DNA of 64,000 bases, taken from NCBI RefSeq assembly GCF_034627025.1, contig NZ_CP141048.1, positions 1,438,001 through 1,502,000 of the forward strand, read 5' to 3'. The stretch is from Microvirga lotononidis (lineage in GTDB: Bacteria; Pseudomonadota; Alphaproteobacteria; Rhizobiales; Beijerinckiaceae). Within the stretch, counting starts at the first letter, position 1, and every line of letters begins with the position of its first letter. The position numbers and the translations under genes were made by a program. A model generated the notes under the pieces. That model did no database searches and had not been told where the DNA came from. It saw only the letters and a program-made list of their open reading frames with translations. Shown here piece after piece: positions 39,548 to 54,183 of the stretch.

Positions 39548-39988
39548 TCACCGCAGACCGATCTCCACGCCGCTCACATTCGCGTTGAGCTCGAGGCCGA
39601 TGGTCCGGCCGCGAAGCTCGAGGACGACGCCCTTCGCGTTCTGCAGCCGAATGCCGGATGCCCCGCCGCCCACGGCAACACCGCCGCCGACAGCCGTGTA
39701 GGTGCCGGCAATGTCGGAGGCGCGACGCAGGTTATAGGCGCGGCCCACAAGTTCGGCCTTCGATGCGCCGATCGTCGCGCCGAAGCTCAGGCCTCCGACG
39801 CTCAGGGGGTAACGCCGTCCCTGGAAGACGAGCGTTCCGCGACCGCCGCCGACGCCGACGATGAAGCCCGCCTTTGCGATCTCTATGTGCACTGTCCCGG
39901 TCGCGGCCCATCCTGGTTCCACCGATCCCATGACGAGGGCCGAAAACGCGATCAGGCCACATCGAAGAGCGTTTGAAACCCTGAACAT
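39548..39988 (-). CDS. Exported Gly-rich hypothetical protein
   Basis: A 146-residue exported protein. Residues 1-28 are a signal peptide ending GWAA. The mature chain is beta-rich with glycine repeats (FIVGVGGGRGTLVF near residue 42, GGGVAVGGGASG near residue 103) and resembles uncharacterised proteins of Bradyrhizobium and Methylobacteriaceae; a link to SYLF-type lipid-binding proteins is only a resemblance. AAGGAG precedes the ATG. It lies 116 bases upstream of the SH3 protein, same strand, and may share its transcript. Confidence 0.72.
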   Translation of the reverse strand: MFRVSNALRCGLIAFSALVMGSVEPGWAATGTVHIEIAKAGFIVGVGGGRGTLVFQGRRYPLSVGGLSFGATIGASKAELVGRAYNLRRASDIAGTYTAVGGGVAVGGGASGIRLQNAKGVVLELRGRTIGLELNANVSGVEIGLR

Positions 39989-40506
39989 CGATCACTCCTT
40001 CCGTGCATGAATGCGAATGCCGTCGGGGTCGCCGACACGACCTCAACCGATGCGGGCGTCACCGACACTGGGGCGGCCGCGCAGGACCGCGGCCCCAACC
40101 GCGACCACGCGGGTGCCGGCCGCAGGCGCGCTCAGAGCCAAGAGAGTTCTGCTCATGAAATTCTCCCGTCTTCCGGCGCGCCGCACGGAGCGCACAGCCT
40201 GCCATCAGGTCGATCCATTCTGATTCCGTCAGCGGCAATCGCTTGATCGTTTGGGACAGGCGCTTGTCATTTTGCGTCATTGCTACGCTAGAAAGAGCCC
40301 CGGCAGCCGGTTCACCGAGGAGCCAGGGTCTGGGTCGGGGAGGTCAACGCCTGAATGCGCGGGATCATGGCATGCAAGCTTCCGGCGGCTTCCCTGAAAC
40401 CGTTCGGCGTCACTCGACCATGCGAGCCGGGCTCGGCTCGAAAGCCGGGCCGAATAGCGAGCAATGGCTCTCCGCAGCAACGGGACAAGCTCGATTGAGC
40501 GCTCAT
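39989..40506. other. Intergenic region with one weak minus-strand frame
   Basis: 518 bases without a supported gene. A 37-residue minus-strand frame (40043-40156) has GGGAG before its ATG and an export-like start, MSRTLLALSAPAAGT; if the frame shifted once near 40080 it would continue as PVSVTPASVEVVSATPTAF. It could be a broken small exported-protein gene, but evidence is thin. The rest shows nothing recognisable. Confidence 0.25.
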
Positions 40507-41583
40507 TCAAATCGAGGCAGGCGCCTTCGTCCCCAGGATGGTCTCCGCCCCGAGTCCCAGCCTCACCAGCGACCGCCGGTACTCGATCGACATTCGGTCG
40601 GCCGGAGTATGGATCTCATCCCTCAGATCAAGCGGAAGCTCCAAGGGTGACTGCGCCTCGATCAAAGGAGCGTCTTCTGCGTTGATCCGGGACTGGAATT
40701 CGACCATCGCCGCCGGATCGATCTGGCCCGTGTCGTCGATCAGGATCTGAAAGATCTCGGAGACCGTCGCACTCACGGGAGATGCCACGTCATACACCCT
40801 GAATGTCGTGTCGTTCGTCACGTCGTAGAGCTGGAGGTAGCTGCTGAACGGCAAAGACAATCGATAGATGTATCGGCGATGGCGGAGCGGGAGTTCGCCT
40901 TCCGTCTTTTCGGCATACCGCACCTTCTCATGATACTCCGCCTGAAAGCTCAAGGTGAGATCTCCAACCGATACGTCATAGGGCTCGATGACGCGATCCT
41001 CTGCCCCTCCAAACGTTCCCTGATGAACGAACGGGATGTGGCAGAGGTCGTTGAAATTCTCCACGTGCCGGGCCGCCGATGCGCGCCAGGTTCCCCGCAC
41101 CCGCGCAAGGTTGCCGCTGCCGCTTTCAATATGGGGCCATTCTGGAATCGGCGCCGCCGGCTGCTCATCAAGGCATACCCAGATCATCCCATAGCGTTCC
41201 TCGCAGAGATAACTTTCCAAGCGCAGCTTGACGGGGATAGGAGCATCGGCCGAAAGCGCCGGGATCTTGCGGCAGGCGCCGCTGCCGTCATAGTGGAACC
41301 CGTGGAGAGGACAGACCAGAAGACCGTCCCGGATCGCGCCCATGCTGAGTTGGGCCCCACGGTGCATGCAGAGGTCCTTAGCGGCATGGACATGTCCGTG
41401 CGAGCGCCAGAGCACGAGCGGGATGTCCAGCAACCTCGCTCCGACCGGGTGGTCCGTCACGTTGGTCGACCAGGCGACTGGGTGCCAATAAGACGCGAGA
41501 ATATGCCAGTCCGCCGGCACGAAGCTGCAATTCCTGGGAAGCCTGGATTTCGGCGTGTTGCTGTTCTTGGCGGGGAGGAACAT
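40507..41583 (-). CDS. Rieske non-haem iron oxygenase (VanA type), copy 1
   Basis: A 358-residue single-component oxygenase subunit. The Rieske cluster ligands are Cys72/His74 and Cys91/His94 (CMH...CPLH), and the mononuclear iron site is Asp179/His182/His187 in NFNDLCHIPFVH. This architecture is that of vanillate demethylase and related aromatic or N-heterocycle demethylases, which insert oxygen with electrons from a VanB-type reductase. That reductase gene ends 18 bases upstream. The final residues do not identify the substrate. It is the last gene of an eight-gene minus-strand cluster. Confidence 0.9.
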   Translation of the reverse strand: MFLPAKNSNTPKSRLPRNCSFVPADWHILASYWHPVAWSTNVTDHPVGARLLDIPLVLWRSHGHVHAAKDLCMHRGAQLSMGAIRDGLLVCPLHGFHYDGSGACRKIPALSADAPIPVKLRLESYLCEERYGMIWVCLDEQPAAPIPEWPHIESGSGNLARVRGTWRASAARHVENFNDLCHIPFVHQGTFGGAEDRVIEPYDVSVGDLTLSFQAEYHEKVRYAEKTEGELPLRHRRYIYRLSLPFSSYLQLYDVTNDTTFRVYDVASPVSATVSEIFQILIDDTGQIDPAAMVEFQSRINAEDAPLIEAQSPLELPLDLRDEIHTPADRMSIEYRRSLVRLGLGAETILGTKAPASI

Positions 41584-41601
41584 CGCTATCGGATCTCCAG
41601 A

Positions 41602-42549
41602 TCAAAGATCAAGGACGAGGGTCGTTCCCGGTTTGCCCCGAGAGACGCAAATGAGCATGCGATCGCCGGCCTTGTGATCATGCGCCGAGAGAAAGTAATC
41701 GCGATGGTCGATCTGTCCCTCCAGAACCGTCGTGAGACAGGTCCCACACACTCCCTGCTCGCAGCTGACATCAGGCTCGATCCCTTCGCCGCGCAAAGTC
41801 TCCAGGATTGTCGCGCCGGCTGGAACCGGGACTGAGAGGCCCCTGCGCGCCAAGCTTACGGTAAACTCGGGGCCCGGACCGGCAGGCTCAGGTGCGGCGA
41901 AGCGTTCAAGCCTGAGGTCGATATCCGGACGTGAGGCACAGGCCCGGCTCACCGCATCCATGAACCCCGAAGGCCCGCACATATAGACCCGCGCCCCGTC
42001 CTTAATGCGGGCCGCAAGGCTCCCGGCATCGAACCGCCACTCCGGCGGGTCGTCATCACGATAGATGGCGCACGCCATGCCGTCTCCGCCTCTGTCAAGG
42101 AAATCGCGGAAGGCGACGCGGTTATCCGCGCGCACGGCATAGTGCAGCTCGAACGGCCGCCCTCGCCGTAGAAGGACGTGCGCCATCGCGATCAGCGGCG
42201 TAATCCCGATCCCTCCTGCCAGCAAAACCGTCGGCACATCGTCTCGGACAAGTTCAAAGGTGTTTCTTGGCTGTCCAACATGAAGGACTGCACCCACACC
42301 AAGATTATGCATGGACGCCGAACCGCCGCGCCCGGCAGCGTCCCACTGAACGGCGACAATATAGCGGTGGCGCTCGCTTTCGTCGTTGACGAGCGAGTAT
42401 TGCCTGACATGCCCGCTTGGCGTGTAAACGTCAATGTGGGCGCCCGCCGTAAAAGGGAGCAGGGCCGTATCACCTTCAGGCACCAGTTCGAACGCAACTA
42501 TGCCTTCCGCGATCGCCGTCATCGCCCCGATTCGAACGATCTGCATCAT
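41602..42549 (-). CDS. VanB-type ferredoxin-reductase for Rieske oxygenases
   Basis: A 315-residue phthalate-dioxygenase-reductase-like protein. The FMN-binding barrel carries RQYSLVND near residue 54, the NAD-binding domain has LLAGGIGITPLIAM near residue 110, and the C-terminal plant-type ferredoxin domain has cysteines 263, 268, 271 and 301 (CEQGVCGTC). It passes electrons from NAD(P)H to Rieske oxygenases. Only one reductase is encoded beside two oxygenases, so it probably serves both. The gap to each flanking oxygenase gene is under 20 bases. Confidence 0.92.
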   Translation of the reverse strand: MMQIVRIGAMTAIAEGIVAFELVPEGDTALLPFTAGAHIDVYTPSGHVRQYSLVNDESERHRYIVAVQWDAAGRGGSASMHNLGVGAVLHVGQPRNTFELVRDDVPTVLLAGGIGITPLIAMAHVLLRRGRPFELHYAVRADNRVAFRDFLDRGGDGMACAIYRDDDPPEWRFDAGSLAARIKDGARVYMCGPSGFMDAVSRACASRPDIDLRLERFAAPEPAGPGPEFTVSLARRGLSVPVPAGATILETLRGEGIEPDVSCEQGVCGTCLTTVLEGQIDHRDYFLSAHDHKAGDRMLICVSRGKPGTTLVLDL

Positions 42550-42562
42550 CGCAGCTCTCCTG

Positions 42563-43642
42563 TCAGATGGCGGTGGCGATCCCGAGTTCCTCGATCCATT
42601 TCTGATATTCCATGAGGGGAAGGTCGCCCGGCCCCATAGGAAGCTCGACCCGTGTCCAAAACGGCGGGATCAGCCAAGGGCGCTGGCTCTCGATGATGGG
42701 TTTATCCTGCAGGCGAACATGAGCCGACATGGCCTCATAGGCGGCATCGCTCGCCGGATTGAGGTCATAGTTGCGGGCGAAGATCCAGAAGTTGATCGTC
42801 GTGTTGTAGTCGACCGGAGACGTCGCCAGCCATATCACGTACCGGCCGGCATCTGTGTCCTTCACAAGCCGTATCACGTTCGGCATGCCGACATGGTCGG
42901 TGTAGAGGATCCTGACAGGGCCCGCGCGCTGCGCATCCGGCCGCGACATGTCGGTCGTCATCAGACCCGGGGGCTGCTCCACCTCGTATTGGACGACAAG
43001 CTCGTTGTCTTGCCGCCACACCTTGTGGTTTGGCGGCTCCGGCTTGTTCCGATCGCCTAGAATGCCCTCGTGGACCCACGGAAAGTGCGTGTCGTCCAAC
43101 GTGCCCATGATCATCCGAGTTGAGCTGGTGCGCATCGGCTTTGTCTCCCGCAGACGGACCTTTCGGAAGGAGGTGTCCCCCATCTCCGGAAAGTCCGGAA
43201 TCGGAAACGTGGCCTCGTCAGCCAAGCAGACCCAGATGATCCCATAGCGCTCAACGGCGCGGTAGCTGGTCAGGTTGGCCGTCATCGGGATCTTCCGCCC
43301 CGGCGCCAATTGAGGGATGCGCACGCATCGCCCCCCTGTTCCGAATGCCCATCCGTGATAGGGACATTGCAACGCCTGTTCCCCGTTCACCTGGACAAGA
43401 GTTCCCAGCGAAAGTCGCGCCTGGAAGTGCCGGCACACATCCGGGAACACGACGATCTCCCCGTCAAGGCGGGCAAGCACCAGATTTCGGCCAAGGAGCC
43501 GAACACCGGTAGGGCCGCCACATTCGAGAGCCGAAGCTTCGAGAACAGGATGCCAGAACGGCATCATCCCCGTGCGAAAGCCAGTGATCGCTTCCGGACT
43601 CGGCGCGTCGTCCAGAGCGGTGATGAGCTTGAGATCATCCAT
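42563..43642 (-). CDS. Rieske non-haem iron oxygenase (VanA type), copy 2
   Basis: A 359-residue oxygenase subunit, clearly divergent from copy 1. Rieske ligands are Cys70/His72 and Cys93/His96 (CRH...CPYH), and the iron site is Asp183/His186/His191 in LDDTHFPWVHEG. The spacing and length fit the VanA/NdmA-like group rather than two-subunit aromatic-ring dioxygenases. The N-terminal MDDLKLITALDD precedes the Rieske domain. It is encoded upstream of the shared reductase and 35 bases after the transporter permease gene. The substrate is unknown. Confidence 0.9.
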   Translation of the reverse strand: MDDLKLITALDDAPSPEAITGFRTGMMPFWHPVLEASALECGGPTGVRLLGRNLVLARLDGEIVVFPDVCRHFQARLSLGTLVQVNGEQALQCPYHGWAFGTGGRCVRIPQLAPGRKIPMTANLTSYRAVERYGIIWVCLADEATFPIPDFPEMGDTSFRKVRLRETKPMRTSSTRMIMGTLDDTHFPWVHEGILGDRNKPEPPNHKVWRQDNELVVQYEVEQPPGLMTTDMSRPDAQRAGPVRILYTDHVGMPNVIRLVKDTDAGRYVIWLATSPVDYNTTINFWIFARNYDLNPASDAAYEAMSAHVRLQDKPIIESQRPWLIPPFWTRVELPMGPGDLPLMEYQKWIEELGIATAI

Positions 43643-43677
43643 AGAAGGTTGTCCCGGTTCTAGTGGAAGGAGCTATG

Positions 43678-44493
43678 TCAGGATTGGCCGCTCCCCGCAG
43701 GCAGGCTGCGAGGAAAGAGGAACCGTTGGACGAGATTGACAGCTTGGAAGAGAAAGAGGCTCGACGCCACCAAGACGAGCAAGGCTGCGAAAGCTTGCGG
43801 TATCTTGAAGAACGAAGTCGAGGATCGAATGAAGTAGCCAATTCCCTTTTCGGCCGCGACGAACTCCGCGACGACGGCCCCGATGACGGCAAGCGTGATG
43901 GACACGCGGATCGCGGAGAAAATATACGGTAGAGCGAATGGCAGCCGGATGTGACGGTACTGGTTCGCTATGGGCGCACCGAGAGACCGGCTGAGCTCGA
44001 TCAACTCGGAAGGCGTTTGCGCAAGGCCCGTCGAGATCCCTACGACGAGCGGGAAGAACGTGATCATCGCAGTGATCACAACGCGCGGCAGTTCAGTCGC
44101 GCCGAGCGTGACGACCAAGATCGGTGCCACCGCGACGACGGGCGTCGATTGAACGATGACCAACAGGGGGTATATGCAGCGCCTGAAAACGGGCGAGACC
44201 GTAATGGCTATGGCAAGTGGAAAGCTGATGACGAGGGCGAGGCCGAAGCCCATGAGGACGACGCGAAGGGTCGCTTGAAGGTGCTCGAACCACATCGCCA
44301 TAGGCACAGCGAATCCCGCCACGGCAATCTGCCAGGGGGCGGGAAGCAGCCAGGGCGGCACGGCTGCCATGCGGCAAACGCCCTCCCAGAGCAGAAGCGT
44401 GCACGCCACCGTAGCCACGGGATAGATCCAGTCACCCCGTAAGGAGATCCGCCGAGGGACAGGCTGCGAACGAATTGTGTCAATGGAGCTCAT
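43678..44493 (-). CDS. NMT1/Tau-type ABC transporter permease
   Basis: A 271-residue inner-membrane permease of the SsuC/TauC/nitrate family with six hydrophobic segments. The ABC-contact loop ELSRSLGAPIANQYRHIRLP is near residue 167. It would form a channel with the ATPase encoded directly upstream (14-base overlap) and the binding protein encoded two genes earlier. Relatives import alkanesulfonates, taurine, pyrimidine precursors or aromatic acids, so family alone does not fix the substrate. Confidence 0.9.
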   Translation of the reverse strand: MSSIDTIRSQPVPRRISLRGDWIYPVATVACTLLLWEGVCRMAAVPPWLLPAPWQIAVAGFAVPMAMWFEHLQATLRVVLMGFGLALVISFPLAIAITVSPVFRRCIYPLLVIVQSTPVVAVAPILVVTLGATELPRVVITAMITFFPLVVGISTGLAQTPSELIELSRSLGAPIANQYRHIRLPFALPYIFSAIRVSITLAVIGAVVAEFVAAEKGIGYFIRSSTSFFKIPQAFAALLVLVASSLFLFQAVNLVQRFLFPRSLPAGSGQS

Positions 44494-45259
44494 GGGTTCC
44501 GAGGAGTTGGTTGCGGATATGGGCGGCCAGCTCTTGGAAACGCGGGGCGCGCAAGGTTTCCGGGGTGCGCGGGCGCGGGAGGTCGACGGCCAGGGTTTCG
44601 CGGATGCGCCCCGGACGCGGCGACATGACGAAGATCCGGTCTGCCAGGAGAACGGCCTCGGTGATCGAATGGGTGATGAAGAGAGCCGTGCCCCGCCGTG
44701 CCGACCACAGCCGGAGCAACTCGAAGCTCATCTCGTCGCGGGTCAACGCATCCAGGGCGGAGAATGGCTCATCCATCAGCAGAATATCCGGTTCCGACAG
44801 CAACGCCCGCGCGATGCCCACGCGCTGCTGCATCCCGCCAGACAGCTCGTCGGGAAACTTCTTCCGGAAGTCCGCCAAGCCGACAAGATCGAGCAAGTCC
44901 AGCGCTCGCTCGGTATCCGCGGCCGTCACCAGCTGGCCGCGATGCCGAATGGGAAACGTGATGTTGGACAAGACGTCCAGCCACGGCAGAAGGGTCGGCT
45001 TCTGAAACACGATCCCGATATCGTCACGCGGCCCTGTGACGGGATGGTCGAACACCCGCACAGATCCGGCAGTCGGGGCGATCAGCCCAGCGATGAGACG
45101 CAACAGGGTCGACTTACCGCAACCCGACGGCCCGACCACCACTGCGAACTCGCCATGTCTGATCTCCATGTCGATGTGATGAAGTGCCCTGACGACGCTG
45201 CCATCCGTTGATCGAAAGTCATGGGCGATCGCTCTGAAGCTTATGGCCGGCGTACTCAT
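44480..45259 (-). CDS. NMT1/Tau-type ABC transporter ATP-binding protein
   Basis: A 259-residue ATPase of the SsuB/TauB/NrtD family. Walker A is GPSGCGKST near residue 43, the signature is LSGGMQQRVG near residue 142, and Walker B is ILLMDEPFSALD. The longer in-frame extension overlaps the deaminase in another frame and is rejected; the ATG at 45257-45259 overlaps the deaminase stop (ATGA). It overlaps the permease start by 14 bases, so translation of the genes is coupled. Confidence 0.92.
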   Translation of the reverse strand: MSTPAISFRAIAHDFRSTDGSVVRALHHIDMEIRHGEFAVVVGPSGCGKSTLLRLIAGLIAPTAGSVRVFDHPVTGPRDDIGIVFQKPTLLPWLDVLSNITFPIRHRGQLVTAADTERALDLLDLVGLADFRKKFPDELSGGMQQRVGIARALLSEPDILLMDEPFSALDALTRDEMSFELLRLWSARRGTALFITHSITEAVLLADRIFVMSPRPGRIRETLAVDLPRPRTPETLRAPRFQELAAHIRNQLLGTHELH

Positions 45260-45795
45260 GACATCCGCTCGGAGCGCGACACTTCGGAGGAGGCGGATGT
45301 CCAGAATCCCACATGCGGGGCCGCCGCTTCGCTTTCGAGCACTGGCCCGACGACGCTCACCACATTGCCGCCTGAGGCGATCACCTCGCGGCACGACATG
45401 GTGATCGGGCGCAGGATGTCGGTCGAGCCATAAAGCACGCGCAGCCTCTCCTCGCCGACACCGAAGATCACCTTGGCAAGCCCCGCCCAATGCGCGGCCG
45501 CCGCGCACATCGCGCAAGGTTCCGCGCTGGCGTACAGGGTCGCACCGGCCAGCCCGTCGGGGCGGCCGATCTTCATGGCGGCCACCCGGATCGCATGAAC
45601 CTCCGCGTGCGCGGTGGGATCGTTGGTTTGCGCGACGACATTGATGACGCGTGCCAGGACGGTGCCGTCGGTATCGACGATCTGCGCGGCGAACGGCCTG
45701 ATTCCATTCCGGCTGGCTGACCAGGCGTCGTCGATGGTCTCTCGGAGGCGAGCCTCGTCCGATGCACTGATCTCCGTGACTTCAACTCCGCTCAT
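45256..45795 (-). CDS. Nucleoside/cytidine deaminase-fold enzyme
   Basis: A 179-residue zinc deaminase of the cytidine/guanine/tRNA-adenosine deaminase superfamily. The active site is His63-Ala-Glu65 (THAE-type, TAHAEVHA) with Cys94 and Cys97 (PCAMC). Unlike TadA or guanine deaminase from core metabolism, it sits between transporter genes in a Rieske oxygenase cluster, so it probably removes an amino group from an imported heterocycle or its oxidised product. The gene starts nine bases after the binding-protein gene and overlaps the ATPase start. Confidence 0.88.
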   Translation of the reverse strand: MSGVEVTEISASDEARLRETIDDAWSASRNGIRPFAAQIVDTDGTVLARVINVVAQTNDPTAHAEVHAIRVAAMKIGRPDGLAGATLYASAEPCAMCAAAAHWAGLAKVIFGVGEERLRVLYGSTDILRPITMSCREVIASGGNVVSVVGPVLESEAAAPHVGFWTSASSEVSRSERMS

Positions 45796-45804
45796 CGTCC
45801 ACCC

Positions 45805-46800
45805 TCACTTCGGCAAGTACGTCATGTCGATGAGCGCAGCCGGATTGATCGCGTCCTGTGGGAGCGAGCGGGATTGAGCGACCCAATCCCAGGTCGTCTT
45901 CAGCCGATTGGCCTCGATCGCACCCAATCCGTCCTTCTTGCTGATTTCATTTTGGATCAAGGGGATCGACGCCGCGAATTCCTGGCTGGCGATGACGGGA
46001 TCGACCTCTGGGACGATTTCGTGGATCGCGTTGCCAGCGTCTCGTGGATCGGCGATGGCGATCGCGGTCGCCTTCACGAAGGCGCGCAGAAATGCCTTCA
46101 CCACCTCGGGCTTCTTGGACAGCAGGTTCTCATTGACGACGAGAGACTGTCCATAGCCTTCGTAGCCGAAGTCGGACCACGGAATGACCCGCATGCCCTT
46201 TCCGGCCTCCTTCATGACCGCGGCATCGAGGGCCGCGACAGTGACCCAGTTGATGAGGGCGTCGGCCTGTCCGGCCGCCATCATTGGCGCCACTGCGGCC
46301 GCGTCGACCTTCATGAGTTCGACGCTCGCCGGATCAAGGCCGTTCCGTTTGGCGAAGATCGGCCAGACGACATTGGAACTCGAGAAGCTCGCCGTCGCGA
46401 GCTTTCTGCCCTTGAGATCAGCAATCGCCTTGACGGGCGAGGATGCTGGAACGTGTATCGAGTCGGGCTTTTTGTTGTAGAGCGCGAATACGACCTTGAC
46501 CGGCAGCTTCTGCTCGGCGAGTGCGCCCATGACGGACTCGATGCCGACAATTCCGATATCGGCAGCCCCGGCGGCAACGCGGGTAAGAGTATCGCTGCCG
46601 CCATTGCCGCTGAGAATATCGACGTCAAGGCCCTCTGCGGCGAACAAGCCGCGGGCCTTGGCGACGTACTCGATAGCATTTGACCCGCCGGGCACCCATC
46701 CGAGCTGGTAGACTACCTTTTCGGCCGATGAAGCGGATGTGAGCCCTGCAAGCGACATGGTCATTGAGAGAACGAGGCTTTTGATGCGAATGGCCGCCAT
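45805..46800 (-). CDS. NMT1/SsuA-like ABC transporter substrate-binding protein
   Basis: A 331-residue periplasmic binding protein with a signal peptide (residues 1-25, ending SASSAE). The mature start VVYQLGWVPGGSNAIEYVAK is typical of the NMT1/THI5-like family, which includes binders of pyrimidine precursors, sulfonates and aromatic acids. The ATG at 46798-46800 has AGGA nine bases upstream; an earlier in-frame start is rejected. It is the first gene of the transport/oxygenase operon and lies 98 bases after the LysR gene. Confidence 0.9.
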   Translation of the reverse strand: MAAIRIKSLVLSMTMSLAGLTSASSAEKVVYQLGWVPGGSNAIEYVAKARGLFAAEGLDVDILSGNGGSDTLTRVAAGAADIGIVGIESVMGALAEQKLPVKVVFALYNKKPDSIHVPASSPVKAIADLKGRKLATASFSSSNVVWPIFAKRNGLDPASVELMKVDAAAVAPMMAAGQADALINWVTVAALDAAVMKEAGKGMRVIPWSDFGYEGYGQSLVVNENLLSKKPEVVKAFLRAFVKATAIAIADPRDAGNAIHEIVPEVDPVIASQEFAASIPLIQNEISKKDGLGAIEANRLKTTWDWVAQSRSLPQDAINPAALIDMTYLPK

Positions 46801-46898
46801 GAGGTGGTTCCTTTGCCTTGGACAGGCAAAATGGAACAGCTTTGGGCGAGCACGACCAGCATCGATTTGCGGCACCAGCGTCCTCAAAATGAGAACGC

Positions 46899-47816
46899 TC
46901 AGGCGGCCTCACCGCCGGCCGTGATGTGCCATGTGGGGAGGAATGTGCGTAGATGCTGGCAGAAATTGGCTGCGGCGATCGGCAGAGACGCATCCGGGAC
47001 TCCGGCGATGAGGCGCTGGGCCGGAATCCCGCGATCCCTGAGCGGCTTGAAGACCAACTGACCGGACTTGAGCTTATTGGCGATGCCAACCGGCGTCATG
47101 ACGGTCACGGCTCCACCGGCTTCAACGTAGCTGCTCATGAAGGTAATGCTATTGCAAACGATCCGGGGCTTCAGGCGCAGAGCCGAGCTCGCGAGGACAT
47201 TGTTGATCTGTTGGTGGATCGTAATCGACTCATCCGGCAGAATGAGCTGGTGACCGACCAGATCGGTAAGCGTCGCCGATTTGAGTGAAGCCAGCGGGTG
47301 ATCGGGAGCCGCAACGATCCCGAGGGGGAATTCCGTTGCCGCGACCTGGATGAGCGGAAGCCGTGGCGGAGGATTGAAAATCATGCACACGTCAGCCTGG
47401 CCCTCGGACACCAGCCGGACTGCCTCGTCGGCCGGGCTGCCGATGATCCTTATCTCAATGCGGGGGAAGCGATCGGCAAAGGCACGGACGGCATCCGGCA
47501 GGATATCTGCAAGGGCGCTTTCGATACATGTGATTGTCACTTGACCCCGCGTGCCTGTCTTTAGTTGCTCGATTTCCGAGATCGCGCGGCCATAGTCACG
47601 CAATGTCGTACGGATGTGCAGCGAAAGGATTTCTCCGGCCGCCGTGAGTCTGAGCCCGCGCGGGAGACGATCGAACAATGGTGCTCCAACGAGACCCTCA
47701 AGCTCCAGGAGATGCCGATTGATGGCCGACGGGGCCACGTTGACCGCCTCGGCCGCCTTCCGAATGGACCCGTGGCGGACGATGGCGTCGAAGTAATTCA
47801 GAAGGCGGGTATGCAT
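46899..47816 (-). CDS. LysR-family transcriptional regulator
   Basis: A 305-residue LysR regulator: N-terminal helix-turn-helix at about residues 15-40 (GSIRKAAEAVNVAPSAINRHL) and a C-terminal co-inducer domain. It lies on the same strand just upstream of the transporter and Rieske genes, with a 98-base gap, so it probably controls them, perhaps in response to the imported substrate. A same-strand rather than divergent LysR gene is less usual. No operator with clear T-N11-A symmetry was picked out. Confidence 0.88.
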   Translation of the reverse strand: MHTRLLNYFDAIVRHGSIRKAAEAVNVAPSAINRHLLELEGLVGAPLFDRLPRGLRLTAAGEILSLHIRTTLRDYGRAISEIEQLKTGTRGQVTITCIESALADILPDAVRAFADRFPRIEIRIIGSPADEAVRLVSEGQADVCMIFNPPPRLPLIQVAATEFPLGIVAAPDHPLASLKSATLTDLVGHQLILPDESITIHQQINNVLASSALRLKPRIVCNSITFMSSYVEAGGAVTVMTPVGIANKLKSGQLVFKPLRDRGIPAQRLIAGVPDASLPIAAANFCQHLRTFLPTWHITAGGEAA

Positions 47817-48402
47817 GGCTTATACCGAATCCTGGAGTGGCTGGCATGCGATCGACGGAACCTCCGGCGCCTGCATTAAGACGCCCCTGCACGTATCTGT
47901 CCGAGTCTGGCGCGCCTGTTGCCCGGGCGGCTATCAGAGCGGCAGGATATGCCGCCTTCGCTGCCCTGGGAATGTCTTGAGCCGGTCAATCTGAGCCGAT
48001 TGATGAGACCCCAAAAGGACCCGTCGTCCGAAGGATTCCCGAATTCGTTGATTCCGGCAGCATGGTTCGACCTCTGGGTGAAGCCATACGATGAGAGGAG
48101 ACTGCTGCTTCGGACAGACAGCCGGAGCCGGATCCTGTATCGGGTGGGTGGCGCCATTGACAGTCACGGGCCCGATGGCACCGGCGCGACATGGACCGGT
48201 CCTTCCATCAGGACCTAGCCGCGTCCGTTCGCCTCGACCAAGCGCAACATCTGGGAACCGGCACCACGGACACAAACCCTGACGACCCAAGTCCATAGCA
48301 CGTCGAGGGAAAGGCCCCGCTGCAACATCAAACTCATGGTGCGAGTTATCATCCCATTGTCCGGTGTCGAGCAAAGTGGGCTCCAATGGCTAGGAGAGGA
48401 TC
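47817..48402. other. Intergenic region between LysR and GlcG genes
   Basis: 586 bases without a supported gene. Several overlapping frames of 60-150 codons exist on both strands, but none has a good start site or a recognisable domain. Promoters for the LysR gene (minus) and the GlcG/HbpS gene (plus) must lie here. It may hold a decayed gene; nothing could be assigned. Confidence 0.4.
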
Positions 48403-48903
48403 ATGAAAGCGACCTATCATTCCGCCGTTGGAGGTTTGCTCATACTCACGCTGACTGCCTCCAGCTTTCCGGCCTGGTCGCAAGCACAGGGTCAGCTGCC
48501 GCAAAAGAGGGTTCTAACTCTGGAGGCGGCGCGCCGAGTGATCGCTGCTGCGGAAGCTGAGGCACAGCGCAACAATGCGCCTGCAGTGCTGGCCGTCGTC
48601 GACGATGGAGGCTGGTTGATCCTGTTGGAGCGCATGGATCATGCCCCTATGCTGGCAAGTGTCGAGATTGCGCCGGGCAAAGCCAGGGCAGCGGCAGCCT
48701 ACCGGAAGCCGACGCAGGCCCTGGAGGAAACCATCAACCGGGGAAGAACAGCCGCGGTCACGGCGCCAGGCTTCGTACAGATGCAGGGCGGCGTGCCTCT
48801 CATGGTGAATGATGAAATCGTCGGCGCTATCGGCGTATCGGCCGACACGCCTGCGCATGACCAGCAGATCGCAGAGGCCGGAGCCCGAGCGCTCTTGCCA
48901 TGA
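48403..48903 (+). CDS. Exported GlcG/HbpS-family protein
   Basis: A 166-residue protein of the GlcG/HbpS family, some members of which bind haem or cobalamin. A signal peptide occupies residues 1-27 (ending AWSQA). The family core runs from LTLEAARRVIAAAEAEA near residue 38 through VVDDGGWLILLERMD near residue 66, with the C-terminal GGVPLMVNDEIVGAIGVSA. TAGGAGAGGATC precedes the ATG. It is convergent with the GMC dehydrogenase gene; such proteins often lie beside alcohol or sugar-acid oxidation genes, but its role here is unknown. Confidence 0.85.
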   Translation: MKATYHSAVGGLLILTLTASSFPAWSQAQGQLPQKRVLTLEAARRVIAAAEAEAQRNNAPAVLAVVDDGGWLILLERMDHAPMLASVEIAPGKARAAAAYRKPTQALEETINRGRTAAVTAPGFVQMQGGVPLMVNDEIVGAIGVSADTPAHDQQIAEAGARALLP

Positions 48904-48917
48904 AAGAAGTTCATCCG

Positions 48918-50681
48918 TCAGAGAAGCTGGCCCGGATTACTGAGGTATCGCGCCTTCACGGCCTCCAGTGACCGATAGGTCAGGGCCGCCACCGTGTTGG
49001 TAGGATTGTAGCCTGCGTTCTGCGGAAACGCCGACGCCCCATGGACGAAGACGTTCGGCACATCCCAGCTCTGGAGATAGGTGCTGATCGCCGAGGTCGT
49101 GCGATCAGTGCCCGTAATGGCTCCCCCCGTGGTATGCGTCGTCTGATACGGCACGATGCTGAACGGAACCGGCGGCAGCGATATCTTCAGATGTGTCGGG
49201 TTCGTAGCGCGGGCGATTTCGGTCATTCTGTCGGTCAGGAATTGCCGCATCTTGAGATCGTTCTGCGGGAAGTCGAAGGTCACACGCAGGAGCGGCATAC
49301 CGTAGGCGTCGCGATAAGTCGGATCGAGATCGAGGTAGTTCGTGCGCCGTGCGGTGCTCCCGCCATGAGCCTGGATAGTGTAGGTTCGGTCATACCAATC
49401 GTGCAGGGCTCTTTTCCAGCCGGACCCCCAGGTCGGCGTTCCGTCCGGCAGGACCGTCTGCTGGATCGGACGCGCGCCGGTGGTTTGTCCGAGAATGTAC
49501 CCGCCGCCCACGAATCCGTGCGGGCCATGGTCGAAATTGTCGGAATTGAACTCGTCGATCACCATTCCCATCGCGCCGGCGCCGGCATAGGCATTCATGC
49601 GCTTATCCGCATGGAAGGGGTATGCATAGGACATGGTCTGATAGGCGAAATTCTTGCCGACCACGCCCTGTCCAGTTGTGGGATCGTAAGGTTGCCCGAT
49701 GCCTGAGATGAGCATCAGGCGCACGTTGTGCATCTGATAGGCGCACAGCAGGACGAGGTCCGCCGGCTGGAACGTCTCGCGGCCTGCAATATCGAAATAG
49801 GTTACCCCGCGCGCGGCCTTCCTGTCGGGCGTTAGTTCGATTCGCGTGACATGACTGTCGCAGCGCAGCTCGAAGTTCGGGTTCTTGAGCGCGATCGGCA
49901 GGACAGTGTTGAACGGGCTTGCCTTTGACCAATTGTAGCAGCCGTAGCGTTCGCAGAACCCGCAATAGGTACAGGGCCCCATTTGAACGCCGTCGGGAGT
50001 GGTATAGGAATCGGCACTCATGTTGGAGGCCGGCTGCGGAAACGGCTTGTAACCGACACTCTTCGCGCCCTCTGCGAAAAGGCGCGGGCCGAGACCCTGT
50101 TTCAGGGGAGGCGTCGGGTACTCGCGTGAGCGCGGAGCCTCGAATGGGTTGCCGCCCGGCTGAATGGTTCCCTTCAGATTGCCGGCCTTGCCCGATGTTC
50201 CGCAGACATACTCGAACTTGTCGTAGTAGGGCTCAAGGTCGTCATAGGTCACGCCCCAGTCCTGGATGGTCAACTCGGGGTCGATGAAATTCTTGCCGTA
50301 GCGCTGCTCGTTATGGCTCCTCATCTGGAAGTCGGCCGGCTGGAAGCGCCAGTGCTGGCCATTCCAGTGCAGGCCGGCGCCGCCCAATCCCTCGCCAAGC
50401 AGGAATGCCCCGAGACGGCGCATGGGAAGCGCCGTCTCGTCCGGCTTGTTGCGAAAGGTGAGCGTCTCCCGAGCGAGATTCTGAAAGATCTCTCCGCGGG
50501 AGTTCCACTTGATCTCGTCCAGGGCTTGCGGTGCGGCAAAATCCGGTATCGTGTCGCGATAGCGGCCCCGCTCGAAACCGACGATGCGCAATCCCGTGTC
50601 GGCAAGTTCGCGAGCGGCGATGCCACCCGTCCAACCCATACCAATGATAACGACATCGACGTGTGGCATCTCGCGCGGCAT
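48918..50681 (-). CDS. GMC-family FAD dehydrogenase (gluconate 2-dehydrogenase large-subunit type)
   Basis: A 587-residue flavoprotein. The FAD motif is GMGWTGG at residues 14-20, a GLHWNGQ-type GMC segment is near residue 103, and the C-terminal region has the usual THTTGGAITGTD and HGASAFPQNAGYNPT blocks. A cysteine cluster, C-x2-C-x2-C-x4-C at residues 237, 240, 243 and 248, resembles the iron-sulfur site of related membrane sugar dehydrogenases. It has no signal peptide, so it probably crosses the membrane with its Tat-tagged partner. The substrate is a sugar acid or sugar, not determined. Confidence 0.9.
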   Translation of the reverse strand: MPREMPHVDVVIIGMGWTGGIAARELADTGLRIVGFERGRYRDTIPDFAAPQALDEIKWNSRGEIFQNLARETLTFRNKPDETALPMRRLGAFLLGEGLGGAGLHWNGQHWRFQPADFQMRSHNEQRYGKNFIDPELTIQDWGVTYDDLEPYYDKFEYVCGTSGKAGNLKGTIQPGGNPFEAPRSREYPTPPLKQGLGPRLFAEGAKSVGYKPFPQPASNMSADSYTTPDGVQMGPCTYCGFCERYGCYNWSKASPFNTVLPIALKNPNFELRCDSHVTRIELTPDRKAARGVTYFDIAGRETFQPADLVLLCAYQMHNVRLMLISGIGQPYDPTTGQGVVGKNFAYQTMSYAYPFHADKRMNAYAGAGAMGMVIDEFNSDNFDHGPHGFVGGGYILGQTTGARPIQQTVLPDGTPTWGSGWKRALHDWYDRTYTIQAHGGSTARRTNYLDLDPTYRDAYGMPLLRVTFDFPQNDLKMRQFLTDRMTEIARATNPTHLKISLPPVPFSIVPYQTTHTTGGAITGTDRTTSAISTYLQSWDVPNVFVHGASAFPQNAGYNPTNTVAALTYRSLEAVKARYLSNPGQLL

Positions 50682-54106: not shown

Positions 54107-54183
54107 TGGCGCACCCGACACGATTCGAACGTGTGACCTTTGCCTTCGGAGGGCAACGCTCTATCCAGCTGAGCTACGGGTGC
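54107..54183 (-). tRNA. tRNA-Arg (anticodon CCG)
   Basis: Read on the minus strand, a 77-nt cloverleaf: acceptor stem GCACCCG pairs with CGGGTGC, D arm begins TAGCTCAGCTGGATAGAGC, the anticodon loop CTCCGAA gives anticodon CCG, and the T arm contains GTTCGAATC. The 3' CCA is encoded (54107-54109). It decodes the Arg codon CGG. Confidence 0.95.

Follow-up and report, generated by a model that had tools for sequence, protein, structure and literature searches.

Introduction

What compound would a bacterium import, deaminate and pass on to two different Rieske oxygenases? The question is raised by a run of eight genes in Microvirga lotononidis, within a stretch of 64,000 nucleotides of contig NZ_CP141048.1 (positions 1,438,001 to 1,502,000; hereafter the window). 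The genes encode a LysR-type regulator, a periplasmic binding protein of the NMT1 type (SBP), a deaminase, the ATPase and permease of an ATP-binding cassette (ABC) importer, a first Rieske oxygenase (Ox1), a VanB-type reductase and a second Rieske oxygenase (Ox2). An earlier note on this DNA had proposed an operon for the import, deamination and oxidation of an amino- and methyl-bearing N-heterocycle. That outline is supported by the comparisons described here, which favour a purine, whereas the methyl group is left without evidence.

Xanthine oxidation is textbook molybdenum chemistry. On balance, and with much room for doubt, the operon probably encodes a LysR-controlled, molybdenum-free system for purine import and oxidation, a purine being the substrate that sequence comparison supports best. 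The NMT1-type ABC importer would take up an aminopurine, whether adenine, guanine or a closely related compound, and the deaminase would hydrolytically convert its amino group to an oxo group. Ox1 and Ox2 would then each hydroxylate one of two sites on the purine ring in NADH- and O2-dependent reactions, a single VanB-type reductase feeding both. The xanthine- or urate-level product would join the ordinary urate pathway of the genome, and the operon would represent a molybdenum-free counterpart of xanthine dehydrogenase (XDH), similar to HpxDE and equipped with two specialised oxygenases. Gene content, motifs, clade positions and neighbours are observed directly; control by LysR, the purine substrate, the order of the steps, the positions attacked by the oxygenases and the sharing of the reductase are what we infer.

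A bolder version, which we hold only tentatively and regard as rather unlikely, is a two-oxygenase, molybdenum-free relay from aminopurine to urate, in which Ox1 would found a new family of purine-ring hydroxylases spanning several phyla (Alphaproteobacteria, Chloroflexota, Actinomycetota, Verrucomicrobiota). Adenine, for instance, would be converted to hypoxanthine by the deaminase and then hydroxylated at C2 and C8 by Ox1 and Ox2, served by one reductase. If purine oxidation is indeed the function, an iron-based route, encoded separately and served by its own importer, would make purine nitrogen usable under molybdenum scarcity, and a deep Rieske clade that spans several phyla would gain a substrate class. 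The operon also provides a candidate ligand, purine, for one set of NMT1-type importers that bear family names suggestive of thiamine, taurine or sulfonates.

Relatives at xanthine riboswitch loci

The NMT1-motif RNA (Rfam RF03054) is a xanthine/urate riboswitch (Yu and Breaker 2020, PMC7373994). According to that paper, the genes behind it include NMT1/THI5-like and tauA-type genes, dioxygenase genes (pcbC, hcaE, PDR), guanine-deaminase-like amidohydrolases and, rarely, tadA-type deaminases, and the set is assigned to purine oxidation (PMC7373994). The riboswitch is present in 13 of 349 genomes scanned from the phylum, and one wide region was read in each of 12 of the 13. An SBP relative (22-41% identity) occurs in 11 of these 12 regions and a Rieske protein with 30-32% identity to Ox2 in three. 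A deaminase of the window type is found in six (five from open reading frames (ORFs), that of locus L110 from tblastn), which favours a purine as substrate.

L103, from a genome of the same taxonomic order (SBP 36%, ATPase 57%, permease 59%, LysR 35% identity), has two riboswitches. L104 (SBP 36%, ATPase 56%, permease 53%, deaminase 40%) has three and L105 (41%, 56%, 53% and 42%, respectively) has one. One riboswitch precedes the SBP gene in both L103 and L104. The others of L104 lie 3′ of the deaminase gene and ahead of the gene for an amidohydrolase over the PRK12393 cut-off, a family likened to guanine/8-hydroxyguanine deaminases in the riboswitch paper (PMC7373994). At L105 the sole riboswitch sits 3′ of the deaminase gene, ahead of the next gene, and the importer and deaminase genes are divergent from xdhA, xdhB and xdhC, each over its own NCBIfam cut-off. 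The riboswitch-associated set of L104, with its PRK12393-type amidohydrolase, and the xdhABC neighbours of L105 both point to purine metabolism.

Phylogenetic trees tie the operon to the same loci. The SBP groups with that of a Sinirhodobacter locus, L036 (support 100/100), and with the riboswitch-locus SBPs of L103-L105 (93/93); window, L036 and L103-L105 likewise form one clade for the ATPase (99/99) and for the permease (89/99). Permease support rises to 100/100 once 21 control rows from the M. lotononidis genome, two pairs of them identical, are added, and none of the 21 enters the clade. That all three importer components group with xanthine-riboswitch loci argues for a purine. The name of the SBP by itself tells little about substrate, since the NMT1 Pfam family is broad; the SBP also scores with SsuA/TauA models, under their cut-offs. 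The Ox1-adjoining importers of L037-L044 (7 permeases, 6 ATPases and 5 SBPs in the trees) form a separate clade with other riboswitch-locus importers: permeases and ATPases group with L106/L107 (97/94 each) and SBPs with L106-L108, L110 and L112 (100/100). Because the two sets fall into different riboswitch-locus clades, the pairing of Ox1 with importers of the riboswitch type seems to have arisen on two or more occasions. Another permease of the M. lotononidis genome (L144, G000:C1:2070730-2071431) lies inside the L106/L107 clade, so this organism may have a further purine importer.

The deaminase has the motifs HAE (63) and PCAMC, and scores 56.4 bits with the TadA model PRK10860, below its cut-off of 150 bits. 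It shares a C-terminal GP...H extension with the riboswitch-locus deaminases, in which residues G150, P151 and H161 are invariant across 31 of 31 aligned relatives. The extension is missing from Escherichia coli TadA and from three of four paralogues in the M. lotononidis genome, the fourth being outside the alignment. The alignment serves as evidence for the extension because a rigid pattern overlooked seven clear relatives. In the deaminase tree the window protein belongs to an 11-row clade (100/99), next to which the riboswitch-locus deaminases form two other clades (99/99 and 98/98); as these are separate, the window deaminase is kin to the family as a whole and not to one member. GSDA, the xdh-linked deaminase and two paralogues of M. 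lotononidis, and a fragment from L066 make up a separate group (100/99). The window deaminase is outside this GuaD/GSDA group, and TadA, on a very long branch, falls on its side of the split. The structural model of the deaminase (pLDDT 90.9) gives VIA-align Z scores of 21.8 for Msd, 21.6 for TadA and 20.5 for guanosine deaminase, and guanosine deaminase is its top Foldseek match.

The oxygenases and their reductase

Ox1 and Ox2, 30% identical to each other, both have an intact Rieske centre and mononuclear iron site of the VanA_C type. The ligands of Ox1 are C70-x-H72...C93-x2-H96, DDTHFPWVH from residue 183 and the acid in QDKPIIESQ; those of Ox2 are C72-x-H74...C-x2-H, DLCHIPFVH from 179 and EDAPLIEAQ. 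In a 55-row tree, Ox1 belongs to a deep 18-row clade of its own (100/100) that has no characterised member in the tree and is outside the HpxD clade. The Ox2 family is sister to HpxD (99/98), not within it, a placement that favours a purine. NdmA and NdmB form a third clade holding neither oxygenase; the firm placement in a known pathway such as caffeine demethylation, which the earlier note named as a refutation, is thus not seen with regard to NdmA and NdmB, the tree having no VanA, TsaM or DdmC rows. Plasmid Ndm rows were labelled from gene context and group with the NdmA and NdmB chains. Of the five HpxD-clade rows, three bear the HpxD name in plasmid records, one from Komagataeibacter was labelled by us, and one from Acinetobacter (L118) had been labelled Ndm on account of nearby formaldehyde genes. 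The Rieske proteins of riboswitch loci L106, L113 and L114 are outside the Ox1 and Ox2 clades.

Ox2 is 37-38% identical to three HpxD rows (Pantoea HpxD 38%) and 31-32% identical to Ndm rows (NdmA 31%), and Ox1 is 31-35% identical to Ndm and 32-34% to HpxD. The two positions altered in the NdmA QL mutant entries presumably set position specificity. HpxD has N/F at this pair, like NdmA, while NdmB has Q/L, Ox2 has Q/N and Ox1 has S/R. The arginine of Ox1, R310, is invariant across the 38-row Ox1 alignment, and Q, L or M stands at its position in the pocket-comparison rows from Actinomycetota, Dormibacterota and Verrucomicrobiota. The Acinetobacter row, from A. baumannii plasmid p1KSK1 (L118:4965-9318), is weakly placed in the HpxD clade (91/51) and is encoded near genes for a formaldehyde-sensitive repressor and a formaldehyde dehydrogenase.

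The adjacency of two oxygenase genes to one reductase gene, as reported earlier, is confirmed by gene map and Pfam. The reductase bears the motifs CEQGVCGTC, RQYSL and GGIGITP, and Pfam gives Fer2 and NAD_binding_1 only, with no Rieske domain. It is 36% identical to the reductase beside hpxD in L076 and 41-43% identical to those of L035 and L036. A VanB-type reductase gene also follows hpxD in L076 and L117, not in L116, and in Erwinia such a pair lies near hpxO, uraH and uraD.

Distribution and neighbourhoods of relatives

With a threshold of E 1e-60 and at most five candidates scored per genome, an Ox1 relative turns up in 2 of 396 further genomes from the order and in 1 of 384 further ones from the class, and an Ox2 relative in 1 of the 384. 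None of 36 genomes of the same genus has a match above 35% identity. A public genome collection contains 38 Ox1 loci, including Alphaproteobacteria, Chloroflexota, Actinomycetota and Verrucomicrobiota; ORF maps of the relatives' loci follow a crude rule of length and GC periodicity and include some antisense ORFs. Ox1, reductase and Ox2 genes stand in succession at two of the 38, in Zavarzinia (L035) and Sinirhodobacter (L036), many contigs being short. L036 has relatives of the window's LysR (63% identity), SBP (56%), ATPase (61%) and permease (62%); of the eight genes, the deaminase alone is missing there. LysR genes 57-63% identical to that of the window are found near Ox1 in L036, L037, L038, L039 and L041, and relatives of SBP, ATPase and permease together in 8 of the 38 loci (L036-L041, L043, L044). 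The arrangement of L036 and the importers of these other loci mean that oxygenase and importer co-occur repeatedly. Six further loci (L035, L042, L047, L057, L058, L069) have a 500-residue ATPase and a permease of another importer type, with binding proteins in three that resemble the BMP-type model NF047927, under its cut-off. BMP-type importers take nucleosides.

A blastp match to the window deaminase is found at three of the 38 Ox1 loci, all from Verrucomicrobiota (L065, L066, L072), where its ORF immediately precedes that of the Ox1 relative (39-40%); L067 has none. This position in three of four verrucomicrobial loci supports a purine substrate. The L066 deaminase, the only one of the three in the tree, groups with guanine/guanosine deaminases. 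A window-type deaminase is encoded in two of nine Ox1 genomes, those of Zavarzinia (42%) and Tateyamaria (38%), in each case on a different contig from Ox1. In Tateyamaria the 3′ end of an Ox2-family gene (44% to the window Ox2) overlaps that of a guanine deaminase gene (383.2 against a cut-off of 375.4), again pointing to a purine; this pair is 8.5 kb from the window-type deaminase gene.

The Tateyamaria pelophila cluster (L171:1115-11171; G1098:C214) comprises the window-type deaminase, an importer, guanine deaminase, the Ox2-family oxygenase and a GST-like protein. It also has a split Rieske enzyme, in which a Rieske-only protein of 213 aa precedes one whose match is confined to the catalytic part of these oxygenases, and its importer ATPase resembles the BMP-type 'B6' model, under the cut-off. 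The split oxygenase and GST are, in our estimation, reminiscent of NdmC/NdmE. Judged by equal contig sizes, four metagenome contigs (22943, 9796, 4764 and 6045 bases) may each hold both an Ox1 and an Ox2 relative. An Ox1 row and a deaminase row were ruled out as occupants of one 1372-base metagenome contig, on which both genes would not fit.

At L049-L052, from Anaerolineae and other bacterial metagenome-assembled genomes, Ox1 relatives (45-47%) are flanked by two conserved genes. In L051 these encode E1 alpha- and beta-type subunits of a thiamine-dependent dehydrogenase, and RidA and ArgE/DapE-type genes are present too. On Leisingera thetidis plasmid pBMJM1_2 (L115:2480-12098), an Ox2 relative (52%) is accompanied by a VanB reductase of its own and has as neighbours a RutA-like LLM protein, RidA and an alpha/beta hydrolase.

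Genome setting

The 7.3 Mb genome of M. lotononidis has four Rieske matches at E 0.001, with open frames of 364, 369, 149 and 188 aa; two of them are Ox1 and Ox2. It encodes a PuuE-UHCUDC fusion protein, both domains over cut-off, and a 5-hydroxyisourate hydrolase, elsewhere than xdhAB, and these favour purine oxidation by the operon. A 407-aa protein beside them looks by eye like the urate oxidase PuuD and has no NCBIfam match. Urate formed by the operon could be used by this genome. About 1 kb from its xdhAB genes lies a deaminase gene of a different clade from that of the window.

Alternative explanations

Several findings weigh against molybdenum-free purine oxidation as the function of the operon. 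RF03054 has no match in the operon region (window 39900-49000) even at E up to 10, none in the M. lotononidis genome under stricter filters that lose weak matches, and none in nine Ox1 genomes (0 of 9) in a scan in which no control matched. A hidden xanthine riboswitch is a rejected candidate, found neither in the window nor in the 10 of 38 Ox1 loci scanned against Rfam, a set that excluded L040 and L046-L072. Beyond the window, complete Ox1-reductase-Ox2 clusters were found only at L035 and L036, and both lack the window-type deaminase that the earlier note expected homologous clusters to keep, which counts in part against that note. Fold comparisons of the deaminase disagree on its nearest enzyme and fix no substrate, and the importers of established substrate in the trees are E. 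coli TauABC and SsuAC only. Ox2 need not share the function of HpxD, since its pocket pair differs, and with L118 as a member the HpxD clade is perhaps not uniform and may include demethylases. The L115 neighbourhood suggests another N-heterocycle pathway for an Ox2 relative. Finally, the genome has xdhA and xdhB, over cut-off, so that the operon would be a second route, perhaps used under molybdenum limitation or for a purine that XDH does not take.

These points leave room for other substrates. Methylated purines, with Ox1, Ox2 or both acting as N-demethylases like NdmA/NdmB that release formaldehyde and a methylated aminopurine as the deaminase substrate, are an unlikely alternative. NdmA is the top-scoring solved structure by sequence for both oxygenases and ties with SxtT/GxtA in the fold comparison of Ox1, which fixes no substrate; a 59% Ox2 relative in Paraburkholderia domus is named 'Methylxanthine N1-demethylase NdmA' in the database (no assay behind the name was seen), and the distant Ox1 relatives of L058 and L072 have the NdmB pocket pair Q/L. 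However, neither oxygenase is in the Ndm clade, and neither the NdmA pair N/F nor the NdmB pair is kept in Ox1 or Ox2. Formaldehyde genes, present in the Ndm loci L077 and L120, are absent from the operon (0 of 8). The reductase lacks a Rieske domain of the NdmD kind, the four genome-wide Rieske matches already include Ox1 and Ox2, and Ox2 groups on the HpxD side of the tree; nothing found here supports the methyl-bearing substrate of the earlier note. About equally improbable is a pyrimidine or another amino N-heterocycle (cytosine, isocytosine, a triazine-like compound or a ring-opened purine), handled by a cytosine- or triazine-type deaminase and ring-hydroxylating oxygenases, against which stand the importer and deaminase relatives at xanthine-riboswitch loci, once beside xdhABC, the sister relation of Ox2 to HpxD and the Tateyamaria guanine deaminase gene.

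A division of the transcript into two functions, with Ox1, reductase and Ox2 serving an aromatic compound and importer and deaminase serving independent purine scavenging, would account for the missing deaminase of L035 and L036, for the 36 of 38 loci where Ox1 is without adjoining reductase and Ox2 (many on short contigs) and for the conserved, in L051 E1-type, genes around Ox1 at L049-L052. It is nevertheless very unlikely, as L036 has the same importer type and LysR around the same three oxygenase genes, and other Ox1 loci have importers that group with different riboswitch-locus importers. Catabolism of riboflavin or lumichrome was rejected, its Rieske enzyme having alpha and beta subunits, a ferredoxin and a reductase, unlike the window set (PMC12746152).

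Comparison with known systems

As judged from the genes themselves, the operon is probably best described as molybdenum-free purine oxidation of the HpxDE kind, combined with a purine importer and deaminase of the riboswitch type and with a second oxygenase from an uncharacterised family. The hpxDE genes were reportedly described by De la Riva 2008 and Pope 2009. Like the window, hpxDE loci combine a VanA_C-type Rieske oxygenase and a VanB-type reductase beside a LysR gene (L076, L117). In Klebsiella and relatives HpxDE carries out molybdenum-independent oxidation of hypoxanthine and xanthine, according to the riboswitch paper (PMC7373994). The window differs from HpxDE in its two oxygenases, with the Ox1 clade outside HpxD and other pocket residues, and in having importer and deaminase, not hpxO, uraH and uraD, in the operon.

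Caffeine N-demethylation by NdmABCDE resembles the operon in clustering several oxygenases with a VanB-type reductase and in acting on a purine, the substrate proposed here, but its oxygenases form a separate clade, the window reductase is without a Rieske domain, and no NdmC, GST or formaldehyde gene is among the eight. XdhABC performs the same net chemistry that the operon would catalyse, yet is a molybdenum flavoenzyme unrelated to Rieske oxygenases. The vanillate O-demethylase VanAB shares the Pfam VanA_C and VanB-type architecture. Vanillate/dicamba-type O-demethylation was rejected because NdmA far outscores the dicamba O-demethylase DdmC for both oxygenases (142.5 and 148.1 bits vs 52.9 and 65.6; VanA and TsaM were outside the comparison). 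Xanthine-riboswitch operons share with the window an importer of the same clade, at three loci, a deaminase of one family, C-terminal extension included, and, in some regions, Rieske genes; unlike them, the window operon has no riboswitch, begins with a LysR gene and has oxygenases from other clades.

The earlier note knew of no described pathway with this exact set. For the combination itself this still holds: no described operon of this kind, and no report of one of the two iron enzymes, was found in the literature searched, in which most subscription papers were out of reach and the nearest items were PMC7373994 and caffeine reviews. As to gene types the claim is weaker, the operon being close to the riboswitch-linked set already tied to purine oxidation in that source (PMC7373994).

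Gene organisation and flanks

All eight co-directional genes of the earlier description are present, with their types confirmed by Pfam families and motifs (Table 1). The ORF map places them on the minus strand from 47816 down to 40507, and every one of them matches one or more Pfam families over the gathering cut-off in the profile search: LysR, NMT1, dCMP_cyt_deam_1, ABC_tran, BPD_transp_1, Rieske with VanA_C (twice) and Fer2 with NAD_binding_1. From the SBP gene on they are separated by gaps of 9, 35, 13 and 18 bases or overlap by 4 and 14 bases. With enzyme motifs intact across eight neighbouring ORFs, chance is not a concern. The SBP ORF opens with TTG; the next start, an ATG at 46800 directly ahead of a signal-peptide-like stretch, is more likely the true one.

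Table 1. Genes of the operon, in order of transcription (window positions)
Gene product	Position	Strand	Pfam match or motif
LysR-type regulator, first gene of the operon	46899..47816	-	PF00126 + PF03466
NMT1-type periplasmic binding protein (SBP)	45805..46887	-	PF09084 2.4e-43
Cytidine-deaminase-fold deaminase with GP...H C-terminal extension	45256..45795	-	PF00383 1.2e-19; HAE/PCAMC
ABC importer ATPase	44480..45259	-	PF00005 3.6e-35
ABC importer permease	43678..44493	-	PF00528 6.3e-26
Ox1, Rieske oxygenase; none of its clade in the tree is characterised	42563..43642	-	Rieske + VanA_C
VanB/HpxE-type reductase, presumed common to Ox1 and Ox2	41602..42549	-	PF00111 + PF00175
Ox2, Rieske oxygenase of the family sister to HpxD	40507..41583	-	PF00355 + PF19112

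The flanking genes look unrelated by their predicted products. Upstream, an HbpS-like gene (48403-48903) lies on the opposite strand, and beyond it are a GMC oxidoreductase with gluconate 2-dehydrogenase subunit 3 and a cytochrome c; downstream are an SH3-domain protein and one that matches no Pfam family. The sole Rfam match over the gathering score in the window is a tRNA gene at 54110-54183 on the minus strand.

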